DNA of 64,000 nucleotides from Petrachloros mirabilis ULC683 (GTDB lineage: Bacteria > Cyanobacteriota > Cyanobacteriia > Thermosynechococcales > Thermosynechococcaceae). Each line of letters opens with the position of its first letter. The stretch's first letter is position 1. Both the position numbers and the translations under genes were made by a program. Where the stretch lies: positions 1 through 64,000 of the forward strand of contig NZ_WVIC01000024.1 in the NCBI RefSeq assembly GCF_009939295.1. Direction: 5' to 3'. Positions 38,203 through 40,267 of this stretch are shown piece after piece. Below the pieces are notes generated by a model. That model worked only from the letters and a program-made list of their open reading frames with translations, was not told where the DNA came from and did not search any database.

Positions 38203-38229
38203 AGGTTTCTCAAGAAATTAGTGTTTATA

Positions 38230-38364
38230 TCCCTCTTTTGTCAATTTCGTGAGAGAAAATCTGGAATACTCAAATTACGTTACTGGCATGACGATAGCAT
38301 GGGCTATACGGAACGAACGAATAGAGGCTTCAGATTCTCTCTGCCTAGAGTGACAAAAGAGGGA
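38230..38364. mobile_element. 135-bp family B element, copy 1
   Basis: Begins TCCCTCTTTTGTCA and ends TGACAAAAGAGGGA between TA dinucleotides (38228-29 and 38365-66), the footprint of an IS630/Tc1-type transposase. Copy 2 (40009-40143) is the same length with a handful of changes. This copy is inserted across the end of the gene at 38275 and supplies its last 29 codons and stop. Confidence 0.88.
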
Positions 38365-38913
38365 TAGAGCTGTGTAGCAACTAAGGTCTCCCACTAAATT
38401 TTCAATAAGCCCATACACGAAATTGCATTCTCGCCCATCCAATTCCGCATTAATAAACACAAAATGCCATTGATCGTCCGGAACAACCGAAGAAGTGACA
38501 CTTGAATGAAAGTCTTGGTATTCTTTTCTGATTCTGATCAAGGTATCGGAATCAAACAGAGTAAGTGGAATCATTTGTAGGGTTTCTATGCCGGACAATT
38601 GAGAATTGAACCAATCGTCGTCTGGCAAGCTATCAAAGGAAAAGCTTATTTTGTCAAAATTGTCGTAAATGTACTTGATTGTATTTACAATTTTCGTATA
38701 GTCAGTGAGAACAGGAAAAGTTTCTGGAGACAGAAATGTCTGCACCTCTTCGGGAAACGAACCATCAAACAGGTTGACAACAGGCTTCATGTCAAAGGCC
38801 GCCCCTCCATACCAGAACAAAGGAGAGATATTACCCCTGGATTCGCGAACTAGTTCTTGCCACTCTATATCATCTGCCTGATTCACAGGCCAAAGGCTTT
38901 GTAATAAATTCAT
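38275..38913 (-). CDS. Protein of unknown function with element-encoded C-terminus
   Basis: A 212-residue acidic, soluble protein. A YGGAAFDMKPVVNLFDGS motif near residue 40 and WHFVFINAEL near 150 stand out, but no family is recognised. GGAG eight bases upstream supports the ATG at 38913. The last 29 residues (from SLFCHSRQRE to IVMPVT) and the stop are encoded by the family B element 38230-38364. Removing the element and one TA gives ...GCT CTA TAA, so the ancestral product was 183 residues, ending YTAL. Confidence 0.75.
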   Translation of the reverse strand: MNLLQSLWPVNQADDIEWQELVRESRGNISPLFWYGGAAFDMKPVVNLFDGSFPEEVQTFLSPETFPVLTDYTKIVNTIKYIYDNFDKISFSFDSLPDDDWFNSQLSGIETLQMIPLTLFDSDTLIRIRKEYQDFHSSVTSSVVPDDQWHFVFINAELDGRECNFVYGLIENLVGDLSCYTALSLFCHSRQRESEASIRSFRIAHAIVMPVT

Positions 38914-39041
38914 GGACAAGCTCCTTTATTCTGATGCCCAACGGTTGCGTTCAGCGGCGGCAAAGGTTTTTGAGTCATCGGCAGGAGTTTGAGTTCGTCC
39001 GCTGCAACGCTCTAGTTAGTCCACTTTTGGAGACTCTGGAA

Positions 39042-39413
39042 CTACTGGAGCGCCGTAATTTTTACCATACCACCATATCTTCCTTCAATTTCTAGCTTGT
39101 ATTCTTCCAGCAATCCCATACCAACTAAGGATTCTGTTTCCGATGCATTAACCTCAACTCTTCGGACTTGCCCATCCCAGATTACAGAACCAGCATACAT
39201 TTCAAACATTTTCAGGCTACCATCACCTAGAATTGCATCCTGTATGCCTCGGAGGGTTAACCCTAGCTCATCGACGATCTCCCTCGGTAGCATTAGATCG
39301 CCCGTATATCCTGTATCAATAACTGGTCTGATACTTTTGACTTGCTTACTATCGCCCAAAACGGCAATCTGAATAATCGCCTCACGATTGGCATTAACAC
39401 TGCCTAGAATCAT
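39042..39413 (-). CDS. Retropepsin-like (clan AA) aspartic protease
   Basis: A 123-residue protein with the single-domain aspartic-protease layout: Asp33-Thr-Gly in PVIDTGYTGDLMLP, then the second hydrophobic-hydrophobic-Gly element LVGMGLLEEYKLEI. One DTG per chain implies a homodimer active site like that of retroviral proteases. The ATG at 39413 overlaps the upstream stop as ATGA, showing translational coupling to the 91-residue gene before it. Bacterial proteins of this kind have no agreed role. No membrane or signal segment. Confidence 0.82.
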   Translation of the reverse strand: MILGSVNANREAIIQIAVLGDSKQVKSIRPVIDTGYTGDLMLPREIVDELGLTLRGIQDAILGDGSLKMFEMYAGSVIWDGQVRRVEVNASETESLVGMGLLEEYKLEIEGRYGGMVKITALQ

Positions 39414-39685
39414 TGCAATACATTTGAACCAATGAAGCCAACTCGATGAACCGCTTGATGCCCAATTCGCACAAACCAAATTTGAGCATCTGGATATTGA
39501 GCTAACAATTGATCCGAAGCGGTGAGGCTGTCTTTTGCCAATTCATAGGCTCCCGTTTCAATATCGATCGCTACAATTTTGCCATGATTGCCTTCCTCAA
39601 TTTGAGGACGCACTAGAGATTCATAAATTTTACTCCCACGTTGAGCAAATTCTTCTTTACTATAGCGAAGCTGCTGAGTTGTCAT
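39410..39685 (-). CDS. Small partner protein in operon with the aspartic protease
   Basis: A 91-residue soluble protein: MTTQQLRYSKEEFAQRGSKI, then VRPQIEEGNHGKIVAIDIET and a C-terminal AQIWFVRIGHQAVHRVGF. The first half looks helical and the second half like alternating beta strands. Its stop overlaps the protease start by four bases. It may be the regulator, partner or substrate of the protease, which is inference. I recognise the style of protein but cannot give a family name. Confidence 0.75.
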   Translation of the reverse strand: MTTQQLRYSKEEFAQRGSKIYESLVRPQIEEGNHGKIVAIDIETGAYELAKDSLTASDQLLAQYPDAQIWFVRIGHQAVHRVGFIGSNVLQ

Positions 39686-39900
39686 AGAGTTTGACCTCGT
39701 TACAATGATATACCTACATTTTACTCTGAACGATCTCAGGAACTAGTTAGATATGGAATAGAGCTTAAAGCGGGACACTATAGGCCATCCCCTGGTGTGT
39801 TGAAATGGCTGTAACATTAGCTCTATGAACCGTGAAGCCCAAGCCCTTTCCTGGTTTTTTTGTACTATTGAGCCAAGCACTAAATCTTTCTTGAAGAGCA

Positions 39901-40008
39901 TATAGCGGTTCTCATCTGAGTGAGGTACGGGGTGTGGGGGTTCCACCCTCACGCAGGGGGCACTGTTCCCTGCACCCCATGTACTCCATTGATCTGTAAA
40001 CCGCTATA
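39901..40008. mobile_element. Family A element, intact
   Basis: 108 bases from TATAGCGGTTCTCATC to CTGTAAACCGCTATA, with the best-preserved termini of the family. Its terminal TA served as target for the family B element that begins at once (40009), giving a nested or abutting pair. Confidence 0.85.
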
Positions 40009-40143
40009 ACCCTCTTTTGTCAATTTCGTGAGAGAAAATCTGGAATACCCAAATTACGTTGCTGGCATGACGATAGCATGGGCTATAGGGAACGAGCGAA
40101 TAGAGGCTTCAGATTCTCTCTGCCTAGAGTGACAAAAGAGAGA
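40009..40143. mobile_element. 135-bp family B element, copy 2
   Basis: Begins ACCCTCTTTTGTCA and ends TGACAAAAGAGAGA between TA at 40007-08 and 40144-45. It is the same length as copy 1 and interrupts the remnant reading frame at 40124-40267. Confidence 0.86.
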
Positions 40144-40267
40144 TAACATCAGAATTAAGAGAAGGAAACCGAATTAATTCGGGTGCAATGGCCTCAAAGC
40201 AATCCTGTAGCTCTTTTAAGGAAAATAAATTCTGTTCGTACATGGCCTGTACATCATAAATCAAGGG
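40124..40267 (-). pseudogene. Gene remnant between gatA and a family B element
   Basis: Directly after the gatA stop an open stretch reads ...LIYDVQAMYEQNLFSLKE and continues LQDCFEAIAPELIRF before running into the element, where it stops (TAG, complement at 40124). The composition is protein-like, with acidic helices. It has no start context of its own and no room for a full domain, so it looks like the leftover of a displaced gene. The first possible ATG (40243) would give 39 residues. Confidence 0.5.

Follow-up and report, generated by a model that had tools for sequence, protein, structure and literature searches.

A pair of small overlapping genes on the minus strand of the window (the whole 64,000-nucleotide stretch from Petrachloros mirabilis ULC683 analysed here) may well constitute a mobile, self-contained toxin-antitoxin-like (addiction) cassette, in which a retropepsin-like aspartic protease, PR, would be the harmful part and the small protein encoded before it, SP, its cognate inhibitor; the probability of this reading is put at roughly 0.55. 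The unit conserved across cyanobacterial genomes comprises SP as the first gene, the ATGA coupling, a retropepsin signature, an asymmetry between SP and PR, and an association with plasmids and mobile elements. In the window, the pair is defined by the following features:

39410..39685, minus strand: SP, a 91-residue small protein, the proposed cognate inhibitor or antitoxin (ORF reading, family searches, predicted structure)
39042..39413, minus strand: PR, a 123-residue single-domain clan AA (retropepsin-like) aspartic protease, the proposed harmful enzyme (TIGR03698 score, family profile)
39410..39413, minus strand: ATGA, in which the stop of SP overlaps the start of PR, suggesting translational coupling (sequence; same overlap in 58 of the 64 distinct pairs)
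39309..39317, minus strand: catalytic codons D33-T34-G35 of PR (family conservation)
39120..39128, minus strand: L96-V97-G98 of PR, the hydrophobic-hydrophobic-Gly motif of retropepsins (Gly98 invariant in the family)
39718..39723, minus strand: TAAAAT, a -10-like box, likely the pair's own promoter (comparison of sequences upstream of SP in relatives)
39695..39698, minus strand: GAGG, Shine-Dalgarno-like, nine bases upstream of the SP ATG (comparison with relatives)

Both reading frames are intact in the window: SP starts with the ATG at 39685 and ends at 39410, and PR starts with the ATG at 39413 and ends at 39042. The initial annotation was right in describing a 91-residue gene that overlaps a single-DTG aspartic protease by four bases, and its coordinates and ATGA stand as given. 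A 145-residue ORF in the program-made list begins at an upstream TTG and is unlikely to be the gene; the 123-residue frame is preferred. On comparative grounds a chance origin of the pair is excluded, because SP and PR are conserved down to approximately 25-30% identity, both are under purifying selection (dN/dS of approximately 0.05-0.23 for close pairs or copies, with dS often high), and the pair order recurs together with the exact four-nucleotide overlap in the 58 of 64 pairs listed above. As the TAAAAT box, approximately 35 nucleotides upstream of SP, and the GAGG are common to relatives, the cassette probably carries its own promoter. The box was not among the sites returned by a simple sigma-70 scan, promoter-like and terminator-like sites were no more frequent in a scan than expected by chance, and no clear common operator was seen by eye upstream of SP in the relatives.

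Judged by its motifs, its single domain of approximately 120 residues, and its profile similarity, PR is a clan AA, retropepsin-like aspartic protease. Its single Asp-Thr-Gly is conserved family-wide (D in 98%, T in 94%, and G in 97%), and 68 full-length copies comprise 64 with DTG, three with DSG, and one with NTT. PR and TIGR03698 (clan_AA_DTGF) are both single-domain DTG proteases; however, the window PR reads DTGY and scores 52.3 bits, below the curated cutoff of 57.35, whereas a paired relative at locus L085 reaches 76.3 bits. (What had looked like a solitary "PR" at L085 is an internal piece of the gene without either end.) The description of TIGR03698 names neither a function nor a partner, and the family itself also occurs in Caulobacter, Sulfolobus, and Methanosarcina; the one genome-wide scan, in searches that covered Cyanobacteria plus public plasmids, phages, and viral contigs, returned cyanobacteria only. 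The PR family profile matches solved retropepsins of the clan AA fold family, namely the membrane-linked ApRick from Rickettsia (PDB ID: 5c9d, E 9e-5) and Ddi1 (PDB ID: 4z2z, E 0.02). These matches came from the profile only, as a PDB search with the single PR sequence gave nothing real, and the AlphaFold2 model of PR (pLDDT 39, built from five sequences) is too low in confidence for use.

Searches of Pfam, NCBIfam, and PADLOC assigned SP to no family, and 20 of its relatives likewise gave only chance-level scores. Its AlphaFold2 model (pLDDT 77.5, pTM 0.67) predicts an alpha-beta-beta-alpha-beta core at residues 10-73, followed by a disordered C-terminal tail at residues 79-91; disordered tails are typical of many antitoxins. 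A fold search of the PDB with SP gave no match at E <= 0.001, no DNA-binding family or fold was recognisable in the protein, and the SP profile yielded a weak match to TrwF (E 0.004, spanning 57 residues).

The distribution of the two families was followed in a sample of 292 cyanobacterial genomes, in which all hit loci but one were classed with their flanks and "intact" was defined by profile-based thresholds. SP occurs in 57 of these genomes, with up to 12 matches per genome, and PR in 55. By coordinates alone, 82 co-directional pairs consist of an SP match with a PR match directly downstream, and for most of the seemingly unpaired PR matches a diverged SP was found upstream by profile searches. 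The exact overlap (A/GTGA) is possible even where PR is only approximately 25% identical to that of the window. Distance matrices of SP and PR correlate with r = 0.86 (0.73 and 0.91 within two groups), as is expected of any linked pair.

Presence of a full-length, D[TS]G-bearing PR is almost invariably accompanied by an intact SP directly upstream (106 of 109 copies, namely 105 called automatically plus L193 after inspection by eye; three unusual cases were inspected in this way). In two of the remaining copies SP lies upstream but is separated (L047 and L173), and in the third it is frameshifted (L133); none of the 109 in the 292-genome sample lacks SP altogether. L133, at first sight an SP-PR fusion, is located on a short contig, and its SP has lost the N-terminus in addition to the frameshift. 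The sole full-length PR without SP nearby (L084) carries NTT in place of DTG, and a PR that has lost the motif (DTA, L198) retains its SP. In the other direction, 49 of the 154 intact SP genes (roughly one in three) have no adjacent full-length DTG-bearing PR: 18 of these are accompanied by PR fragments or degenerate copies, 24 by none detected, six by a displaced PR (moved off by inserted DNA or a neighbouring pair), and one lies at the end of a contig. PR can thus be lost, while loss of SP beside an active-motif PR is almost never seen, an asymmetry that, by analogy, corresponds to the behaviour of toxins and their orphan antitoxins. The copies are related and the counts do not represent independent events, so that the Fisher test applied to the asymmetry is descriptive only. 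The source genome itself contains a second SP-PR copy (contig C32, positions 470-1128), degenerate in both genes. The pair order that the initial annotation proposed to follow in other genomes is conserved, and neither of the outcomes that it had set against the pairing was found: the families do not occur mostly apart, PR almost never being without SP, and no known function emerged for either.

The pairs are patchy and multicopy, with tandem arrays at five loci (L092, L093, L099, L100, and L101), and are present on approximately 30 plasmid records; those in PLSDB are all cyanobacterial. In five of 14 plasmid stretches (L113, L114, L118, L236, and L238) the pair adjoins annotated ParA/ParB genes, and a further stretch (L115) has a ParA/ParB-type layout with unannotated genes. 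Elsewhere the pair adjoins ParD/ParE (L116) or has RelE/ParE nearby (L241). Uma2 and toxin-antitoxin families lead among the Pfam matches of 148 immediate neighbours, the latter including DUF2442 (four), DUF433 (three), PIN (three), ParE (two), and Phd/YefM (two); in a small random control (48 ORFs), no toxin-antitoxin family was among the families matched at least twice. At L057 an SP frame forms a fusion with an Unstab_antitox domain, and genes resembling HicB and DUF433 intervene between SP and a truncated PR. At L049 and L065, which belong to different genomes, a solo SP is followed by a small unassigned ORF and then by an HNH endonuclease gene. The cassette was sought downstream of gatA in 13 relatives and was absent in all of them, with no conserved site. 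Searches of phages and viral contigs returned no relative of SP or PR, and a phage origin is therefore unsupported.

The immediate surroundings of the pair in the window contain the following repeats (no strand assigned):

38226..38366: MITE-like element of 141 bp, bounded by 36-bp terminal inverted repeats; a direct copy lies on the other side of the pair (repeat comparison)
40005..40145: the other direct copy of this MITE-like element, 96% identical (repeat comparison)
39900..40008: dispersed repeat of approximately 109 bp (dozens of genomic copies at approximately 95% identity)

The two MITE-like copies bracket a 1.6-kb segment that holds SP and PR, and further copies are found elsewhere in the genome; the repeat of approximately 109 bp is located upstream of the pair. 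The surroundings had been called rich in mobile elements, which is borne out by these repeats but not by transposase genes, none of which was recognised within several kilobases. A 214-residue ORF without a Pfam match (38275-38919) has its C-terminal end read from the MITE-like element and is probably a gene truncated by it.

In several respects the pair resembles type II toxin-antitoxin systems such as ParDE, VapBC, and HicAB: two small, coupled, co-directional genes with the partner (the putative antitoxin) first; a patchy, multicopy distribution and location on plasmids beside partition genes; and orphan, antitoxin-like SP genes with a decayed PR, a lone PR being found in 0/109 and a lone SP in 49/154 cases. 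It differs from them in having a retropepsin-like protease as its putative toxin, in place of an RNase, a gyrase poison, or a kinase, and in that SP is without a recognised antitoxin or DNA-binding domain.

For the addiction cassette, the toxicity of PR, its inhibition by SP, its target, and its trigger are postulated. PR would dimerise like other retropepsins into a cytosolic homodimeric endopeptidase, which, once free, would cleave at least one protein of the host cell and thereby damage it. SP, produced first and in excess, would bind PR and hold it inactive, the disordered C-terminal tail of SP being perhaps the PR-binding part, and the coupling would ensure that PR is not synthesized without SP. 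Loss of the cassette or plasmid, or degradation or turnover of SP, would free PR; the outcome would be a stabilization of plasmids and islands, and a role in defence might also be possible.

The main alternative, rated as rather unlikely, is a non-toxic protease-substrate or protease-activator module, in which PR would process SP (e.g., at its conserved C-terminal segment) or depend on it for folding, and SP, once processed, would serve as a regulator or signal. Such a module accounts for the obligate pairing, the coupling, and the loss of PR function without SP; the asymmetry would be equally expected if SP, as the sole substrate or folding partner of PR, were simply needed for PR to be of any use, and also had a function of its own. 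Both explanations account for the obligate pairing equally well, and only the genomic context separates them. The C-terminal segment of SP is well conserved within subgroups, and solo SP genes appear to be under purifying selection (median dN/dS of 0.28, vs 0.44 for paired SP, both values being noisy); the first of these agrees with a processed SP, and the second does too, although selection on solo SP fits either an independent role or protection against other copies. However, the patchy, multicopy spread linked to plasmids and toxin-antitoxin islands is unusual for a housekeeping regulator, and the stretches inspected contain no conserved third gene or target locus. Both a toxin-antitoxin and a substrate-protease arrangement had been proposed in the initial annotation; the obligate pairing supports that proposal, the sequence does not separate its two halves, and the context leans toward toxin-antitoxin.

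Phage defence by abortive infection, with PR being set free from SP when a phage infects the cell, overlaps with the addiction reading and adds a specific trigger to it. One plasmid pair points in this direction, as it is embedded in a BREX locus of the Nostoc plasmid pNSMS101, with pglZ on one side and pglX on the other (L117, 5645-6282), and restriction-type and defence-type genes are found among the neighbours of other pairs; many pairs, however, adjoin plasmid partition genes instead of defence genes, and PADLOC has no match to SP or PR, which leaves a dedicated defence role improbable. Reverse polarity, with SP as the toxin and PR as an antitoxin that degrades it, is conceivable insofar as proteolytic cleavage could inactivate a toxin and toxin-first gene orders are known (e.g., HicAB), but it is very improbable, since intact SP without PR is common (the 24 and 18 loci mentioned above), which a toxic SP would forbid, and there are practically no PR genes without SP, where this reading would predict the reverse.

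Bacterial retropepsins are largely uncharacterised (PMC12239564 and the sections of PMC2642776 concerned with them). RloA from Pseudomonas, a secreted protein, demonstrates that they can be active enzymes (PMC12239564). Prokaryotic single-domain clan AA peptidases of COG5550 and COG3577 are ORFs of approximately 120 residues with a DTG/ILG template, a format shared by PR; the sections of PMC2642776 that deal with them treat them as sequences only, of which "little is known", and give no operon partner or function. Neither RloA nor ApRick is known to be coupled with a small partner of the SP kind, in which they differ from PR. A literature search, with most subscription journals and preprints outside its reach, found no retropepsin or clan AA protease tied to toxin-antitoxin systems or addiction, and a known role for SP or PR, sought in the literature and the family libraries, was not found, in agreement with the earlier statement that no function had been described for such an arrangement. 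Soluble bacterial retropepsin-like proteases are widespread, mostly without an assigned function, and an addiction role, if true, would give them one; it would also add a proteolytic class of toxins to toxin-antitoxin biology and make SP a natural protein inhibitor of a retropepsin-like enzyme. Small in size and carried on plasmids of culturable cyanobacteria, the pair can be tested directly.

A second protease family came to light at L066, where a solo SP adjoins a further retropepsin-like ORF, this one of the DTGA type; the small protein encoded ahead of that ORF differs from SP and has no Pfam match. The DTGA-type protease is present in 26 genomes of a 146-genome sample, including the source genome (contig C65, 25507-25716). 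In nearly all readable loci (approximately 20, within L267-L296), a member of a small family with the signature ELLPTLxxLSRxDKL is encoded directly upstream; these partners have 68-97 residues and overlap the protease gene by eight nucleotides in 16 loci. The DTGA-type protease and its partner constitute a second candidate protease-partner module, and the recurrence of this layout with a partner unrelated to SP points to a more general class. Tentatively, the two modules might represent an undescribed class of cyanobacterial addiction modules with retropepsin-like toxins and at least two unrelated partner families, i.e., SP with DTGF/Y proteases and the ELLPTLxxLSRxDKL family with DTGA proteases.
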